A program made the translations under genes and the position numbers. This document shows positions 24,696 through 48,639 of a DNA stretch of 64,000 nt, piece after piece. The stretch comes from Prostheceraeus crozeri (lineage: Eukaryota > Platyhelminthes > Polycladida > Euryleptidae): NCBI GenBank assembly GCA_907163375.1, contig CAJQUW010001793.1, positions 62,001 to 126,000 on the forward strand, written 5' to 3'. The notes beneath the pieces were generated by a model that saw only the letters and a list, made by a program, of their open reading frames with translations, did not search any database and was not told the DNA's origin. Within the stretch, counting starts at the first letter, position 1; each line of letters opens with the position of its first letter.

Positions 24696-26047
24696 CGAGG
24701 GCTAGTCAATAAGTCTTGCACATTTGAAATTTAAAGCAAAGCAATTTACTATGATTTTCTTATTCAAAGAAAAGCAATGACAAGTGAACGTCTACAAGCC
24801 CTCTATGTGATCGCCTTTACTGCGGATCACACTTTCCCACCTTTGAGGCAGTTTTTCTATGCCGTCCAACCCTTCGCTGTTCAAAGACCGAATCTGGGCC
24901 TTCACTGCCACCGACAAGTCTTTCAACGTTGCGTATCGTTTGCCTCTCATGGGTTCCTTCAGTTTAGGAAACAGGTTGAAGTCTGGCGGACTTAGATCCG
25001 GACTGCAAGCGGGATGCGGCAAAACTTCCCAACCCATAGAGTCCAGGGTTTCAGTCACATGCTGTGCTGTATGGCATCGGGCATTGTCGTGGAGAATGAG
25101 AGGCTGCAGAGGTCTTTTCCTCCGCAGGGCATTCTTCAGTTTTTTGGAGATGAAATCGGCGTAGTATTCCTTGTTGACGGTCTGTCCAATGCGGACGGCA
25201 TCGGCAAGAATGATTCCAATGTGGTCATAAGCAAAGATCATCATTTGCTTTACCTTGCTCTGCTCACGTCGAAACTTTTGAGGGCGTGGGGAATCCGGAC
25301 TTCGCCATTCACTCGACTGTCGCTTCAATTCTGGTTCGTACGATCGAATCCATGTTTCATCAATCGCAACAATCCTTTCCAGGAAATCTTCGCCTTCTCT
25401 CCGATATCTTCGACGCAACTACATAGCGATTCTGTAGCGGGAAAGCTTTTCTTCGTCCTTTTGGGCGGTGTGGTACCCATCGACCCGTAACTTTACACTT
25501 ACCAAGATTGAGGGTGAGAATCTTGCAAGCAGACCCGTGACTTATCCCAAATTCAGTGGCTACTTCATCGCAAGTTATCCGTCTGTCTTCGTCCAACAAC
25601 TTTTGAACGCACTCCTCGTGTGCCTCATCAGTTGCGGATAATGGGCGGCCGCTGCGGTCTTTGTCTTCGATCGACAGATCACCGTCTCTCAGCCTCTGCA
25701 TCCATCGAGTGACAGTCGAGCGGTCAACAGCCTCTTCCTTGCATGCTTCTTCCAATGATGCATGGATTTCACACGGGCGCTTGTTTCTTGCGAACTCGAT
25801 CTTCACGTAAGCGTGCTGCTCTTGTTCGGAAACATTTTTAGTGAATGACCACTTGCAGACAGACTTTGATTGTTCGTGAGTAATATTCATGACAGCTGCA
25901 GTCGAGAGTGATAGAGAGCTAAATGAGATTTCTCTTGTGCTTTATGAAGCAGATGTTAGCCTGTTCAAAATTTGGTATTGTGATCGCTGAAAGTGCTTTT
26001 AAACGAATTTTGCAAACAAATGTGCAAGACTTATTGACTAGCCCTCG
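24696..26047 (-). mobile_element. mariner element with perfect terminal repeats
   Basis: A 1352-bp element whose two ends are the same 31 bp in inverted orientation, beginning CGAGGGCTAGTCAATAAGTC. It is flanked by TA on each side (24694-24695 and 26048-26049). Size, repeats, target site and encoded transposase all fit the mariner family. The uninterrupted Penelope copy A shows what the site looked like before insertion. Confidence 0.95.
24792..25890 (-). pseudogene. mariner transposase, one frameshift
   Basis: On the minus strand the protein starts at an ATG at 25890 (MNITHEQSKSVCKWSFTKN). Residues 30-120 form the two helix-turn-helix units (ASLEEACKEEAVDRSTVTRW and GRPLSATDEAHEE), followed by a RWVPH motif equivalent to the family's WVPHEL. 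The frame shifts once between about 25418 and 25360. It then continues YRREGEDFLERIVAIDETW, with the first catalytic aspartate, LHDNARCH with the second, and SPDLSPPDFNLF with the third, 34 residues after the second (DD34D). It stops at 24792 after GDHIEGL. All catalytic residues are intact; the single indel is the only visible defect, and with the perfect terminal repeats it suggests a young copy. Confidence 0.93.
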
Positions 26048-29941: not shown

Positions 29942-30885
29942 AAAAAAATTGTACCTAGATGAAAATTGGCAGAGACATTCCTGACAGTACCGGTATTGAC
30001 CAAAATGAACTTCACCGAAATCCACCTTGGCACATCATTTCTACGAGCCCATTTATTATGCGTGTGATTAATAATATCCTACTACTAATAGAATTTTACG
30101 AATTACTCAGAATATGGTCATATGGCATATCAAATTGAAACCTATCATCACGTGAGTGCAACCATGTCATTCTCCAGTTTCAGGAAATTATATAATTCAA
30201 GTAATGACGATAATAATACATGCACATGTAAAAGCATGATTATATTTGTATAGTTTTAAAATTTAGATAAACAGTTCAATGAGACGGATCGGTTGACGAT
30301 GCGAAAATATTTCGAACTATTTATAAAAGAAAACGTCGCTGAAATCGGGCAATATGAATTATATTCATATTGCCCGATTTCAGCAACGTTTTCTTTTATA
30401 AATATTTCGATATATTTGTATAGTTGTCATAGTTACTCAGAGCATGTCATATGGCATCAAAATGAAGTCTATCATCAGGTGAGCACAGCTGCGTCATTAT
30501 TCATGTCTAAAAATGTTATTTTATGGGCTATAACAATAAGATCAGGTTCATGATGGTCTCCTCTTGAAAGCTCTGAATAACCATGACAACTATACAAATA
30601 TAATCATACTTTTACATGTGCATGTATTATTATCGTCATTATTACTTGAATTATATAATTTCCTGAAACTGGAGAATGACATGGTTGCACTCACGTGATG
30701 ATATGCTTCAATTTGATATGCCATATGACCATATTCTGAGTAATTCGTAAAATTCTATTAGTAGTAGTGTATTATTAATCACACGTATAATAAATGGGCT
30801 TGTAGAAATGATGTGCCAAGGTGGATTTCGGTGAAGTTCATTTTGGTCAATACTCTGCCAATTTTCAGCTTGGTAAAAAAATTTT
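29942..30885. repeat. Nested inverted-repeat (foldback) element
   Basis: Three concentric inverted repeats. The outer arms 29942-30253 and 30590-30885 are nearly the same sequence in opposite orientation, except for about 20 extra bases in the left arm near 29975. The middle arms are 30411-30443 and 30570-30602. The inner hairpin is 30319-30359 with 30363-30403: 41-bp arms with one mismatch and a 3-nt loop. A more diverged third copy of part of the arm (CATATGGCAT..AATGAAGTCTATCATCA) lies at about 30448-30510. The whole could fold into one long hairpin. It looks like a foldback-type DNA element or an inverted duplication. Confidence 0.88.
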
Positions 30886-39000: not shown

Positions 39001-41675
39001 AAAACTGTTAATATTAAAATTGATCAAAAGCTGACATACAGTCTCAGTTACTGATATTATTCATCAGATCGAGATAGCTATTGAATTCTTAAATAATAGG
39101 CGAGTTGCATGTTTACTAAATGAGTATTGATATCTTTTCCATTGTAATCATGACGCTTATAGTCCAACCAGGACACGAGTTTCTGCAGGAAGCGAGACCG
39201 AAAGTGAGACTTTCACATAATTTATCATGGGATTTCACATTAGACTATCACAATGATGCCAGTCCAACAAGGTTTCTCTTCTTGTCATGCAGGATCAAAG
39301 AAAACCACGAAATTCAATGGGAAGTGGCAAGAAATTTTCTGTGCAAATGAGATTTTTTGTGGTCTCTCTGGTTAAGTAAAAAATACTTAGTCTAGAGCCA
39401 TAATTTTTGGCATTGATGTCTTCAAGTCAACTCCTGTCATGTGTTTGTACTCAAATCATGCTTCTGATGGGTGATGTATGTGAGACTGTGGTTAAATGTG
39501 GCTTACAAAAGTTGTATTTGCCGACATTAGGATGCTTTTTAAATCTGAATATATCTGGCTTCATAGACGAAAGTACATGAACACATGAGTATGTGACTTG
39601 AATACATTGCATGCCAAAAGTTATGGTTCTAGACTTAGTAGTTTTCACTTAATCAGATAAAACTTAGAAAATCTTATTTGTGCAGAAAACTTTAATTTGC
39701 TTCCATTTGGATTTACATGTGGCTTTATTTCATCTTGTCCTGTCTGACAGAAAGGAATCAGGTAAAATTCGGCAGACACGAAGATTTGTACCTGGAGAGT
39801 ACATAACTATGTGAACTTCGGCCTCGTGCCCTACTGAAGCTCGTTCTGTCAGTTGGAATGCAATTCTAAAGCAACATGCAATGAACGATCATCTGTTCTT
39901 TCAGCTGCTTCCCGATGAGAACTTGTTCGATTCACAGTTTGCAATATTATTGTAATTAATAATTTAATCAGAAATTGGTTACACAACCTCTCATTTTAGT
40001 TTGTGTTATCTAAACAGTCAATCAAGATATAGTTTTAATAACGCACTATCATTGCCGGCATACGCCTACTGTTTAGAATGTGCAATCCTACATCTATTGT
40101 GAATAATTGCACGAAATATACTTAAATTGTAATCAATGATTTTAGATAACCAATTCACTTTTTATCAAAGTCAAAATGTAATAGTCATGGTCTGCAAAAT
40201 TCGCGTGCGATCTTTTGATTAATCCATGTATCTCCTGCTACATCACTTACATCAGTGATATTCTTAAATTTATGCGATAAAGAGTACTTACAAACAAGCA
40301 GATTTTATGGATTGTATACCATTTTATTGTTATTTTTTGTTTACAATAATAAGATAAGAAAATATCCATCATCTTTATAAGATGACTTACTTCTTCTGTA
40401 ACATACTGTTCTTGCAGGAAATGGCAATCATGGTCAGCTTGTGTATACAAGTCGCATGACTGCTTGATGTGGTACAAAACCTTTTTATTGATGACATTGA
40501 TTTTCGTTTAATCTACTCATGCAGAAACTGTTGCAATCTTTTTCTGCTCGTTAAACAGAATTGAGCTTTTTTTCGCAGACAACAATTATTCTTGGATAAG
40601 TGTATCAGCAACTTGAAGACTGCTGACAAATTCTTATTGTTTCTTTGTTATTTCGTTGATCCGAGTGTCACTTTTTCAGACGGATGTTTTTCCTTCAGTG
40701 TATTTGGTTTCTAAATGTGACTATCGTGAACTCTTCTTTATCCAAAGAAAACCATGTTATTTGATGCTGCTGAAGATTTTGTATCCCACAGATTGTAAAC
40801 CATGACATATGAAGCGTAAAACTTTCTTTGCAAGTTGAATATCTGAATGAAATATCAATTGTATATGCCCATTATTCTAGTCTTTTTCACTATTTTCAAA
40901 GCATCCCATGGAATCGTCAGAAATGGCATTGTTCAGTGCGTCCTTCACTTCGGATCTATTATGACTGCATGTAAACGTTGTGAATATTTAGAAATCGTCT
41001 GCAGTTTCGTAGTACTTGGCGTAACTCATAGTACAAAGGCTGTGAGCATGTGTAGAGTGTACACGCATACTAATGTTCTACAGTGTTCTGGTCCTGTGTT
41101 CCCAAAGTGGGTGATATCGCCCCTTTTGAGCGATAAGATCCTAAGATGTAATTTTGCATTCAGGTAATTTAGTCTACATGAAATGTTAAAGCGTACTAAA
41201 CCTTGTCCACAATTACAAGCGGATGCGTTTAATCTTTTTTATAGTAATATCGATCATCGAATCTCGCGTTTTTGCATAATATGTCTGTCATATTTCGCGT
41301 AGGCTACGAGTTTCACTGATGTCAAATGGGCCTATTAAAAATGTTATTTGCATTTTGCTGTTCTAATCTTAAAATTTTGTGAAGGAAATTAGTCAATGGA
41401 ATCAATAAACTTTAGGACAAGTTTATTTTCGCGACCCAAGTTTCGGAGCCTTTTGGGTTTGGCACCCATGTAGGTTGCTCGATCGTCCAGACGAGCCAAT
41501 ATAGTTTGGGAATTTTCAAGCCGAACTGCAAGCCTATGTAAAACATGGCTACATAACCTGACAGATCTAATTTAGGTCCATTTCTTTATTACTCCCGTTC
41601 CCAAGTGTAGCTATATGTGTAGCACTATAACGATAGATCAAATTTACAGTGAGCGAAGCAGAGTCAACATGTAGG
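39001..41675. other. Intergenic region downstream of PNKD
   Basis: No gene recognised. It presumably holds the PNKD 3' UTR and poly(A) region. An open frame at 40847-41167 begins with a signal-peptide-like stretch but is judged a chance frame. Confidence 0.4.
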
Positions 41676-42779
41676 CCTACAGCAGCGTTGCCACCGCTGC
41701 GCGGTTCCGCGCGGATGAAGGTTTCAGAAAAATATTTTGTTTGGGCTTATAAATTTAGAAGAGATGTTTTTTTGAAGTCGCGGTAGCATTTTTCTTCTAA
41801 ATACATATATACTGTATATATATATAAGCTTACAATAAAGCACTTTTTTCTACAACTACTACTTTATCTAACATGATTCAACTTTTAGGCATCGATAAAC
41901 ATATAGGTAGGCCTATAGCTGAAAGTGACTTTGGTCTGATGTCGGAATTTTTTGATTAATATTTGTGAGCTATCTTGATTGGGATGTTTTGTTAAGGTCT
42001 AAATAATGTCTCCATTTACTTATGATGATAATAATGGCAACTTAGTTTAAGCTCAAAACACATTAGCGCGGAGCCCGTTGTCGATGTGGTCGTACTAAAA
42101 TGGTCATTCTTATCAATGAACTCAAATTAAGCAAATAGGTCGATATATTTCTAAATCGGCTTGCGTGCGTGGAAGTCTGGTCATGTGACTGATAGGGCAA
42201 TTTTTTTGACTTAGAATTTTTGAAATATTACCAGGCCTAAACGTACGATGCTTTTATATGACCTATAAAGCATAATCCACAACAAAACCAAGAATCGACA
42301 AAGTTGTAACGTTACACGAAACATAGTGCAATAAAAAGAACAATTTATTTCTCAAAAGAAATTTAACCCCTTAAGAATAAACAAAAGCACTAAATTCATC
42401 AACGAGCGCTTATGTCCCTTCTATTTCACGCTGAACATGGAACTGAGTGACAATACGTGACATGAAGGTGTTAGCACAAAAGATCATGATAGTCACCAAG
42501 GCAGACGTAAAATGAACAATTAAGATGTCTATCTGAACACAATTAAGGTCGGATGCAAACCGCTTTATACACAATCCCTCGTAGATGGAAAATAGCTATA
42601 AATTAGGAGGACAGAAAACAATCTTAACCCCTTGCATGCCAAAGTGAAATAGAAAAAACACCCCAATCGCCAAGCAAAAATGCAAAAAATATCAAAATTC
42701 TTAAACACAAATTGCCATCTATTTTCACAATATTACACTAATTTGGTCATCAAAAACTGCGAATCTTTAGGTCAAAAGT

Positions 42780-44396
42780 TAATTTGGTGAATTACCTTGT
42801 CCATGGAAGTCTTTGAAACACGAAACACACAAAGAAGGAAAGGATTGGCATCCTGCGTATCTGTACGTTTTCCTTGTCTCGCACATTCCCTGCACTTCAA
42901 TCTGCGCTGTTTGCCGTGCAATCCTCTAGGAATCAGTTCAGGCAGATGTAATTGTGCATCTTGGACATTGGGGAGGGCTCAAAGAACCGGTGTTTCGACG
43001 TTTGGTTGGCCTGGATTCCTTACGTGTAAAGTACACAACAGCAGACTTTGTAAAGCTACTAAAAGTAGTTTTCGGGACATTTCGTTCTTGCTTGTATCTT
43101 AAACAAATGCGTTCAGTAGTAGTAATCTTTGCAAGTAGGCTAATGCAAGCTAATTTTCTTGAACCAAGTAGAACACCTTCTGGTAATTGTCAATGAAGAT
43201 AAAAGCTGGTCGGTCAAGTCAACACCTAGGTGTTGGGAGCTCCCATTTTTGAATTATATGTTTCTATAGCTGTTGGTTTTTCATAAGCTTCATCAACACC
43301 ACGAATGTTTCTTGTCTTTTGTACAACTCCAGGGTCATGCAGTCGTGAGCAGGTAAACATCTTTTCTATCGGCAAATTTTATTGCCAAGACATTGACTTT
43401 CGCCATATAGGCGATTCCACGATTCGGAAGTTTCTTTTCTTGAAGTTGCATAGGAATACCGCGGTTCTTCATAACCGTGCCTCTCATATATGTTTTCTTT
43501 GAATATAGATACTCGCAGCCAGTCGCAAACTTGTGTACCAGTTATCGAGTGTTACTGTATGCCACTTTTCCAACAAATCAGCTCTGCGTAACAAATGGAT
43601 AACAATTGCTTCACTTTTAGATAAGGAAGGAATGTCATCAAAGTTTGATCCAGCTCCATAATAAACTTCTGACGCAAGCATATACCCATAAATGTCACAT
43701 AGCATACAAATCTTTATACCAAATCGAGCGCGTTTAGTTCTTATAAACATTCGAAATCCCAAACGTCCTTTATGAAGTAATAATGTTTCATCCAATGACA
43801 GCTCCGATGATGGCTGGAATAGATGGCAAAGATGTAGAATCTCGGTGACAAAGTCAACTAGACGACTATTTCTGTTTCCGGGTTCCACCCTGTTTGGATC
43901 AGAAAATCGTAGGTAACGATGAATGGCTCTGTACTGATTCCGTGGCATAACACGAGAATAATATGGAGTATGCATATGATCGGTTCAGTTGACCAGTAAT
44001 CATCGATGCGTAGTTTCTTAGTCAATGGCATAGCAAGTGTCAGACCAAAGAATTTTTCATCGAATCAATATCCACATCTTTCCATTCTGCTTCATCTAGG
44101 GTTGCACGGGCATTCGTCCAGTCACAGAGCTTTTGAAATAGAGAATCTGGAAGAAACGTCGAAGTATAGTCTTCTAATTCTTGAGGTTGAGTGACAGTCC
44201 AGCCTGCAACCCCTTCAAACGGATGACTTGTGTGAACATATTCCTCAACTTGAACGAATCTCCAATCATCACTATCTCCGTCTACCGATTCTTCTCCGTC
44301 GCTTGAGTATCCAACGTCACTTTCACTTGTACTGTCATTTGAATCGTGAGCCACAAAATCTTCATCCGACACATCATCATCAGATTCGGATTCCAT
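42780..44396 (-). pseudogene. piggyBac transposase (PGBD-like), broken
   Basis: Minus strand. An acidic N-terminal region (MESESDDDVSDEDFVAHDSN, then SDGEESVDGDSDDW) is followed, after a frame change, by FFGLTLAMPLTKKLRIDDYW and a second frame change to SRVMPRNQYRAIHRYLRFSD. The DDE core is readable: the first aspartate in ELSLDETLLLHKGRLGFR, the second in TVTLDNWYTSLRLA. Next come TYMRGTVMKNR and LAIKFADRKDVYLLTT. A cysteine-containing C-terminal remnant (KCRECARQGKR) ends near 42780. The true start was probably further upstream: an ATG near 46734 begins MSLSRPRRQRQP in the sequence now on the far side of the nested hAT. Confidence 0.87.
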
Positions 44397-44415
44397 AAGC
44401 GACGAGTGGGCTGGC

Positions 44416-46697
44416 CAGGGCTGTGGAGCCGGAGCCTTAAGGAGCCGATGGTTTTGGTCGGAGCCGGAGCCGATTTATCACAAAGGCTCCGGCTCCGGCT
44501 CCGATAGTTTGAGCTTTGATATAAATCTAGAATTTTGAAAGTTATTAATTGGCATCATAAAAAAATTAAATCATTTGAAATCTAAAGATATGTCTTTTAA
44601 GTATACCAATGATCTAGGTCCTCCACGATATCTTTCTTTGCAGTTGCCGCCTTCTTTTGTATTATATTTATTATATATTTACACACACGTGTAATATTTT
44701 TTTATTGCATATGTTTCGTAAGACTAATTTCCATATTGACAACGTATTCTCCAAAATCCATTAATTTGAAGACTTGTTATATGCATGCTAAGTAGATGAT
44801 TGTAGATTCCTAGAGACAAGTCGCCAGTCATTTATGTACACATTTCCAGTTCAGTCAGCAAAGATAATATAGCTACATTTCTTGCGCAATGTCTTAAATC
44901 TAATACGGTTACTATGTAGGCTATCATCTATCGGTATGGCTACTGGCAGAAGCTACTGGCATCTGTGACAATGCCAATTTCCTTAGATTGTATTGTAGGC
45001 TCTTGTGCAGTCCCCCCACCTACATTTTTCAAAATAATCGATTATTCAATTTGATCAATTTTGATTGGAGGGAACTCTTCACACTCACACGAATGACCTG
45101 ACTACAAGTCCTCACATGGCTATAGCAATAAGCGACCCAGCCACTTCTAGTAGCGCCAATTCAAAGGGTAGTCTATATTTCAATGCGAAAAACCCGAAGG
45201 CAAATTACAATGTTGACTTGCTGACGAAGTTTGCGACCATGACATCGCAATTACCCACGTAGATTTTTACAACAGCACGGAATGCTTCACTCAAACCGGT
45301 GATGCTGAAACGGACATCCAATGATGCTGCATCTTTTGACCAGAGAAAAAATGGGGGGGAGGACTGCACAAGAGCCGTATCGTGTAATAATATTTCCCCA
45401 AATGTCATAGACCTGTGGATTTCAAGAATTTTCATTATTATTTTTTCCGTCTGTCAACACTTTATGCTGATATCATGCTGACTTATATGTAAACAATAAA
45501 AAAAGACAGACGCTCTCAATAAAGGCGCCTTTTGACCTCCCTTTTCTATTGTCTTTGACATTAAACCGCACGCGCATTCGAAAGCTAGCAAAGTTGGGAT
45601 TTCTGCTCGGTGCTCGCAGTCAAATTTTAATTATGCATAGCACCCTGCAACATACTGTGTGATACTCCGAGTTCAGTTTCATCAGCCTAACCATCGTCAG
45701 AGGAATAGTGGTAATGTGTTATACATAAATTGAATATAATAATATACATGAATCATTGATGAATTATTTAGTGCAACTTTACGCCATAATGAAAAATACG
45801 AAATGGAAATTAATATAATGTAAGTTAGGCCTTAACTTATTAAGTATGCTGCATAGAATTACAAAACTTGTCCTAAATTAGATATTTTTAATTTTTTTAA
45901 GTATAATTTTCAATTGTACATTTCTAGCCTACACTGCAATGAGGCTATCTAAATTACAATTTCTACAGATGATGAGTCGTGGGCTACCCACCGATCATAT
46001 TATTCATGGACCAACAGACTATTGAATAAAGGCAATAACAAATAACAATAGCAACCTAAGCTAGCCTATATACACTTTAATATTCAATAAAGCAATTGAT
46101 ATCTTTATTGATACGGTATATTTGGCTATATAGCCGATACCCTTTCCATGTTCGAGTAGATACAGGCCCTATAAGCTATTTAGAGGCATACGCTATCCAG
46201 TTTCATATTCAAGCTTTGTTAAAAAGCTTATACTACTATTCGGCCCCTGTGACGGCTAATTAGGTATATCATCATCAATCATGTGGTCTTATTTAATGTA
46301 GCCTCGTAGTAGACTGGTTGCAGGCTAGACCAATTTATATTTAGCCAGTGCGGGAGATCTTTATCTAATTTAACCAATCCTGGCTATAACTTTATTTTAT
46401 CTTTCAGAGATAGTCAATTCATGCAAAAATATATGACAAGTATGTGTGTTTGTCATTATATTAGGCTATTATCATTTTTATTATTAACTTACGTCGTTGC
46501 TTGTTAATGAAAACTAATTTGATGATTGTAGCAAGCCTCTAAAGGCCACACCGTTATCCAAAAAAACCCGTTCAACGGATCCAGGATAACCAGCATAGAT
46601 AGAACCTGAATTTGAAGTCGGAGCCGGAGCCTTTCACATCAGTGTCGTGGAGCCGGAGCCGGAGCCGATGAGATAACGCATCGGCTCCACAGCCGTG
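44416..46697. mobile_element. hAT-type non-autonomous element nested in piggyBac
   Basis: It is flanked by the 8-bp direct repeat GGGCTGGC (44408-44415 and 46698-46705). The left end is CAGGGCTGTGGAGCCGGAGC; the right end, reverse-complemented, is CACGGCTGTGGAGCCGATGC. Both ends carry extra GGAGCC/GGCTCC units in both orientations. The 2.28 kb interior is AT-rich and shows no transposase. Removing it rejoins the piggyBac 5' coding sequence. Confidence 0.87.
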
Positions 46698-48639
46698 GGG
46701 CTGGCGCTGTCTTCTTGGTCGACTGAGGGACATGATCCAAAACCGTACGCAGTCAAGAATGCGCAAATTTAGTTTAACAACAGTTTTTACATACAGTCTC
46801 ATCGTCTGGAGGTCAAACACGATCAGAAGGTTGCTTCTGATTGGTCGCGACTGCGCTCATTGTTCAATGCAATCTATCACTTTGTTATTGCAAGGCAATT
46901 TCGAGAAATACCTTCTCTAGCTCAGACAAGCGTTTATCACTTTGTTATCGTGTCTAATTGAAACAAAAGCATTCTGCCAACTATTGACACTCACCCAGTG
47001 ATGCAGTCATACAGGTGGTTTTCATACAATCATGAAACAAATTTATTGTGCTCATGAGCTCTCCAGACGCCAATCGATGTCTTGCTTTGTCATTCATAAC
47101 GCCAGGCTTCTATCAAATAAACCAATTCCTATGAACAAAGAAGACGCAATAGCAAGGGGTTAAAGCGATCCAATGCGTCATCAATCATCATCATTACAAG
47201 AACATAATTGAAGATGACGATCAGTGATGGTCCTGGATGCTCGCCGATAAGATCGCGGTCGACAACGGTTTGTGCTGTGAAGCCAAATAGGAACTGGCCT
47301 ACCTGTCACCAAGTGCTAATTGCATGCTGCAAAACTAGCAATTTATATATGAAAATAGGAAAATTTGGATGACGCAACAGACATAATATGACATGTCATA
47401 AAAAATTGCCTTAATTATGACGTTTTATATCAGTTCCTCTATGCTTTAATCATCGTGTGTCACAGTTGTTACGAGTTAGTAATCTTTTAATTATTCCCAA
47501 AACAAAATAATGGAGAAAATAAATAATGGTTCATGTATTATTATACGTCACCAGGAAAATACAGGAATTTTCAACAGAAGTATTCAAGGATGTCTTTAGC
47601 AGTCACAAAGTCGGAAAACAGAAAGTCTTCAAAGTCTTCTGTCAGCATCAGCAGGAGAGGACGGGTAGCAGCGACCATCCAGGACAACGTCAGCGCGCAG
47701 TTGTGACAGAAATCGCGTATTTGCCTTCGCGTTCAGCTCTACGCGTTAACAGTCTTCACTTCACCAATTGCATCACTTGACTTGGCCAGCTCGGATCTAT
47801 AGTGATAATGACAGCAACAGTAACAAAGGTATTAAACAAGAACATAATAAAACAATGGATTGAATAACAAAATACCCTAACTAAAACAACCACCCCTAAC
47901 CTAATAACAAAGAATAAATAAAATTGTGCATGCCCCGCAGAAGACAAAAGAGATAACACAGTTATATAGACGTTTTATTATTCATAACTTGTCACAGTGA
48001 TGAGATCATATTTGACTCATGAATATTATAAAAGCGTGTGAAATTTATCTTACATATGCGAGGTAATTTGCATACTTACTTTTTACAATAAGATAGCATT
48101 ATCCGTAAAAATTGTTTCTGCTGAAACAAATTTGCATTTTATTTCTATAACTAGGCCTATAGCAGTTTTGATATTTGATGTACAGCTTCATCAGTGTATT
48201 GAAAATCAAGTCTTTACCAAGAAGTAAAATCGGAAATGTCATTGAAATCGCTCACAATTATACGATATATTTAAGCACGGTCAAGAATTCATGGAACCTA
48301 TAGACCAGGCTAGAAACAAGTTTTTAGCAACAAAAACTTTCCTTTCGTAAACATTTCCATGAAACAAATCATACCAATTCACTGCTTAGTAGATGCCGTA
48401 GTTTCAGGAACAACGAATATGTTCCAAAAAGTAAGCCCTCACGGACGCAATTTCCTCCATGTCATAGGCTTGATTTTAGAACCTTCATTTATACTACCCT
48501 GCATCGACACACTGCCTATGCGGATAACATCGTCCTGCACGGATTGGGTCGCGAGGTCCGGTGGCAACGCTGGCCTACAGGTCAGGGATCATAAACATTT
48601 ATACAAGTAAAGGATCTCACAAAGCTGGCCTCATGACGC

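Follow-up and report, generated by a model that had tools for sequence, protein, structure and literature searches.

How many insertions of mobile DNA lie behind the transposable-element ends that crowd one site of a 64-kb stretch of DNA, and in which order did they arrive? This whole stretch, called the window here (G000:C1473:62001-126000), was analysed together with copies from the same assembly (2.05 Gb, 14165 contigs). The original prediction was built on flanking repeats and consisted of three levels: a hAT host, a piggyBac inside it and a second hAT inside the piggyBac. When copies across the assembly were considered, five insertions of mobile DNA, stacked up to four deep, were observed at 41683-48572, and two of them (element B and a solo LTR) lay beyond those first described. 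The order outer element, piggyBac, inner element holds, within a deeper stack than three levels; one locus, however, orders insertion events and not the activity of families in general, as had been claimed.

The three flank pairs exist in the window (GCCTACAG, TTAA and GGGCTGGC) and exceed chance. An exact 8-bp target site duplication (TSD) with a 14-bp terminal inverted repeat (TIR) occurred twice in the window (the outer element and a palindromic repeat at 30148-30698) and in none of 20 Markov-resampled windows. TTAA with an 8-bp TIR starting CC occurred once in the window and 0.05 times on average in the resampled ones (maximum 1). Assembly copies of the outer, piggyBac and inner elements stop at the boundaries seen in the window.

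The window also carries a tubulin-domain piece, an HAGH C-terminal piece and other transposable-element relics, from which the genome was taken to be of animal type. The left flank of the nest (40900-41682) is single-copy except for eight weak partial matches, and on the right another dispersed repeat, with 82-88 % identity to at least 39 matches, begins at about 49040 and reaches at least 49400. The 551-bp stretch at 30148-30698, which passed the same TSD and TIR screen, has matching inverted arms with a palindromic 8-mer at its ends. A decayed mariner-like transposase is present at 24792-25941 (minus strand), of which the piece 24792-25418 matches DDE_3 and Transposase_1. An Imm31 hit (E-value 0.014, ORF 48314-48607) was below the Pfam cut-off and was taken as chance.

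The outermost layer (level 1) is a non-autonomous element at 41683-48572 on the plus strand, starting one base before the predicted 41684. It is flanked by the 8-bp TSD GCCTACAG (41675-41682 and 48573-48580) and has the perfect 14-bp TIR CAGCGTTGCCACCG at both ends, beginning CAG and ending CTG. The consensus of hAT TIRs is YARNG, and the TIRs found here, starting CAG or TAG, fit it; we label the element hAT-like, judging from its TIR and TSD. Its own pieces (41683-42192, 47414-47466 and 47959-48572) rejoin to 1173 bp when one CAGT is removed. When the assembly was searched with the left half of the element (41683-42623), 30 loci were obtained: the window, 18 outer copies and 11 copies of element B. 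Aligned to the window, the outer copies run to 42194, resume at about 47415 and again at about 47965. Seventeen of the 18 have a junction without B, where 42195-47414 is wholly missing, and 16 align across both the B site and the LTR site, the exceptions being L002, which carries B, and L017, which is deleted near the LTR site. These counts include two loci (L003 and L004) that overlap on one contig (G000:C5371:151320-155769), where part of the outer element is tandemly repeated.

Element B (level 2a) occupies 42193-47413 on the plus strand and has the TIR TAGGGCAATTTTTT. Its own pieces (42193-42627 and 47164-47413) rejoin to a non-autonomous element of 685 bp. At the 11 other loci the copies start at about 42193, cross the TTAA and stop at about 47421; ten align straight across the piggyBac site and eight hold the exact TTAA. 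Since outer copies skip B and B copies read through the TTAA, B was placed inside the outer element and the piggyBac inside B, not directly inside the outer element as first proposed. At the eleventh locus (L010) another insert, about 0.7 kb long (about 771-1500) and unlike the piggyBac, sits between two copies of ATCTTAAAGCG nearly at the piggyBac site of B, so this spot has been struck more than once. At 8 bp the TSD of B matched 8/8 in L014, 7/8 in L006 and L022, 6/8 in L027 and L030, 5/8 in L010 and L016, and 4/8 in L018 and L026. The window copy has no clean TSD pair, its left target copy being damaged and the right one (ATTATGAC) remaining, and a small deletion was therefore assumed; L002 has kept its target copy on the left side, TCTATGAC. 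By eye the targets of B are alike and GTYATGAC-like.

The order of the outer element and B is not firm at the window locus, because B also sits, at an identical position and in the same orientation, in L002 (G000:C6944:389434-393105), an outer copy on a different contig with different flanks. The two may have moved to the window locus together. On that account B had entered an outer copy elsewhere and the pair came as one composite, giving four events here and not five, and we give it an even chance. In the outer tree the window pairs with L002 (support 0.692) within a clade of support 1.000 that includes L003/L004, and the two elements are equally diverged, the substitution distance from window copy to consensus being 0.133 for the outer element (21 sequences, of which the overlapping L003 and L004 supplied four) and 0.129 for B (9 sequences, first 175 bp). 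However, the pairing of the window with L002 is weakly supported, the tree of B does not unite them, L003/L004 of the same clade are without B, and no third B-bearing outer copy was present among the 40 matches listed in the junction search. The likeness of the B targets would also permit two independent hits. The outer tree thus leans weakly to a composite, and the target preference of B would also fit a preferred site that was hit twice.

The piggyBac (level 3) lies at 42628-47159 on the minus strand between two TTAA copies (42624-42627 and 47160-47163), has the 8-bp TIR CCCCTTGC and measures 2242 bp without the inner element. An open piece of its decayed transposase (43484-43984, minus strand) matches DDE_Tnp_1_7 (E-value 5.8e-27). 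The frame of the window copy is in pieces and is also split by the inner element. At least ten other long copies were found at 93-95 % BLAST identity (gaps counted), and the three that were read contain frames of 361, 412 and 422 amino acids. A DUF3716 hit in a piece of the piggyBac (E-value 0.08) was below the Pfam cut-off and was taken as chance.

The inner element (level 4), a hAT-like element of the GGAGCC type, is found at 44416-46697 (plus strand, 2282 bp), inside the stretch of the piggyBac that encodes the transposase N-terminus. It has a TIR matching at 14 of 15 positions and the TSD GGGCTGGC (44408-44415 and 46698-46705), of which a single copy is present in three of three piggyBac copies. 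An 8-bp TSD matching 8/8 was observed in the window and in each of the three copies that were read at either end (L061, L062 and L065). In the sister piggyBac L066 the transposase frame starts MSLSRPRRQRQPTRRF and the target of the inner element corresponds to codons 10-12, so the insertion splits the start of the transposase coding region. Five ORFs of the inner element (64-82 amino acids) gave no Pfam match and the element was therefore considered non-autonomous.

Two further candidates within the inner family were rejected. A 31-bp inverted repeat (44998-45028 and 45346-45376) had suggested another element inside the inner one. The region is whole in L061, L062 and L063 and was therefore assigned to the family itself; copy L064 begins within it, and part of it is missing from L065. 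A second form of the inner element had been considered from many matches starting near query position 354, and when contig C3484 (L070) was read leftward the missing left end was found. The search itself may have broken up matches of this kind, judging from the two contigs looked at (C3484 and C499). In C499 (L063, L069) the left end is absent in the stretch read, and the contig looks chimeric.

The fifth insertion (level 2b) is a solo LTR of a young Gmr1-like Ty3/gypsy family at 47467-47958 on the minus strand (492 bp, TG...CA), bounded by the TSD CAGT (47463-47466 and 47959-47962). A search with the right half of the outer element (47164-48572) gave 39 non-self matches of 98-100 % to about 47467-47959, among which eight pairs lie on the same strand about 5.1 kb apart. 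By eye, 4-bp TSDs were seen at L032/L033 (CAGT), L043/L034 (AGGG), L053/L049 (ATAT) and L041/L056 (GTAT). The copy bounded by one LTR pair was read in three separate stretches (L032, L033 and L071) and encodes a Gag with a SCAN domain, an integrase, and then a gypsy-type reverse transcriptase (RT) and RNase H. Goodwin and Poulter reportedly described in 2002 a Gmr1 pol order with integrase upstream of RT-RNase H, and the integrase-before-RT order of this family is what we take to be the Gmr1 type. A SCAN domain is present in Gmr elements (PMC4131045). The LTR also occurs at regular spacing elsewhere, four times at 4973-4975 bp (G000:C4301:208817-224236; L059, L060) and three times at 1590 bp (G000:C310:324414-328086; L036, L039, L040), which suggests that the gypsy element is arrayed head to tail there or that the assembly is at fault.

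Divergence fits the nesting order, and a long interval separates levels 1-2 from the other layers. The window copy differs from its consensus by a substitution distance of 0.0081 for the piggyBac (n = 4, a set that includes L066, whose own distance is inflated by an unrelated tail) and 0.0053 for the inner element (n = 6), and the window LTR is 0-1.2 % from 29 other LTR copies; all of the consensus sets are small. These three layers are too close for a firm order by divergence alone. Nesting orders the piggyBac before the inner element, and the solo LTR is probably the latest layer, as its distance from sister LTRs would indicate.

We conclude with high confidence that the nest is an ordinary nested transposable-element cluster of at least five insertions, deeper than first described. 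Observed boundaries, copies, empty sites and divergence carry this explanation directly. An old, decayed hAT-like non-autonomous element contains the equally old B; much later a piggyBac entered a TTAA of B, and the 2.28 kb hAT-like element landed where that piggyBac encodes its N-terminus. A Ty3/gypsy element also recently entered the outer element and was reduced to a solo LTR, presumably through LTR-LTR recombination. The hAT-like elements would have been cut and pasted in trans by hAT transposases. No host function of the nest is indicated.

An assembly artefact would be conceivable in a repeat-rich draft of 14165 contigs. However, every junction has its own exact duplication or a base-exact match to empty sites, neither of which misassembly would create, and we consider this explanation very improbable. 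Least probable of all is a piggyBac directly inside the outer hAT with nothing else inserted, which has three exact flank pairs in its favour but fails to account for the absence of 42195-47414 from 17 of 18 outer copies, for flanking DNA that is family B at 11 other loci, and for an LTR found at many other places.

The TSDs of the outer family were also analyzed, and the constant length of 8 bp that had been expected was not found among 15 copies. A total of 38 outer loci were read (18 from the first search and 20 from the second), and two ends within the limit were available in 16; the duplicates L088 and L091 were removed and the window was added. Three copies (window, L023 and L080) matched 8/8 at 8 bp, and L077 matched 7/8 at 8 bp and also 5/6 at 6 bp. 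Repeats of 6 bp were observed in six copies (6/6 in L005 and L087; 5/6 in L021, L025, L028 and L029), L083 matched 5/5 at 5 bp, and four of the 15 (L012, L015, L082 and L092) had no TSD. Two loci outside the sample, which missed the end-quality limit, gave 6/6 (L078) and 5/5 at 5 bp (L007). When flanks were paired between different copies as a control, 0.07 copies were expected at 6 bp (at least 5/6) and 0 at 8 bp. The tree of these scored sequences joins L080 (8 bp) with L083 (5 bp) as sisters (support 1.000). A one-base shift of the outer ends, which might lengthen 6-bp TSDs to 8 bp, was rejected as the adjacent bases mismatch (few copies, by eye).

The original hAT assignment of the outer element depends on its TIR and TSD, in a family that has both 6-bp and 8-bp TSDs. 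We lean slightly towards a single non-autonomous hAT-like family that shares one type of TIR and has TSDs of 6 or 8 bp (perhaps also 5 bp), the length not cleanly following the tree. It would have been mobilised by two hAT transposases of different stagger (a hAT6-type and an 8-bp type) or by one transposase of flexible stagger. Two TSD lengths in one hAT family are unusual, in a sample that is small and of old copies, and a limited literature search on TSD length found no mixed 6- and 8-bp TSDs within one hAT family. Among at least 150 PF05699 matches, five loci with a hAT transposase domain were sampled for an autonomous partner; none had the outer, B or inner TIR, and the hAT-like elements could thus be linked to no mobilising enzyme. 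Autonomous hATs with TIRs like CAGCGTTGCCACC, and two enzymes at 6 and 8 bp, would favour cross-mobilisation. TSD length is the basis for defining hAT5, hAT6 and hAT7, and if the mixture persists in a larger sample it would test whether that length is fixed by the transposase or variable within a family.

The nest is otherwise a tidy, ordinary record of old hAT-like layers followed by recent piggyBac, hAT-like and gypsy insertions. It indicates that flank pairs alone overlook layers, and that family copies and empty sites are required.

When compared with known systems, the piggyBac shares the TTAA target and the DDE_Tnp_1_7 transposase with its superfamily, and the 412-aa frame of the sister copy L067 matches piggyBat 9c0f (E-value 4.7e-43) and piggyBac 6x67 (E-value 2.1e-27). 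The window copy differs in being frame-broken and divided by the inner element. The gypsy family shares SCAN in Gag and the position of integrase with Gmr1-like elements, whereas the window has a solo LTR only. In the hAT superfamily (PMC12730594, PMC2874221) an 8-bp TSD is usual according to PMC12730594, and it is shared by the inner family and by the outer element of the window; hAT5, hAT6 and hAT7 make 5, 6 and 7 bp and are kept as separate groups in PMC12730594, whereas the outer family has both 6 and 8 bp. In the REANNOTATE approach, nested clusters are resolved by defragmentation and younger elements are dated by the older ones they interrupt; a single benchmark run there yielded 3619 inferred nested insertions (PMC2672092). 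The present nest is the same in kind as those clusters, with hAT-like, piggyBac and LTR elements brought together at one site.
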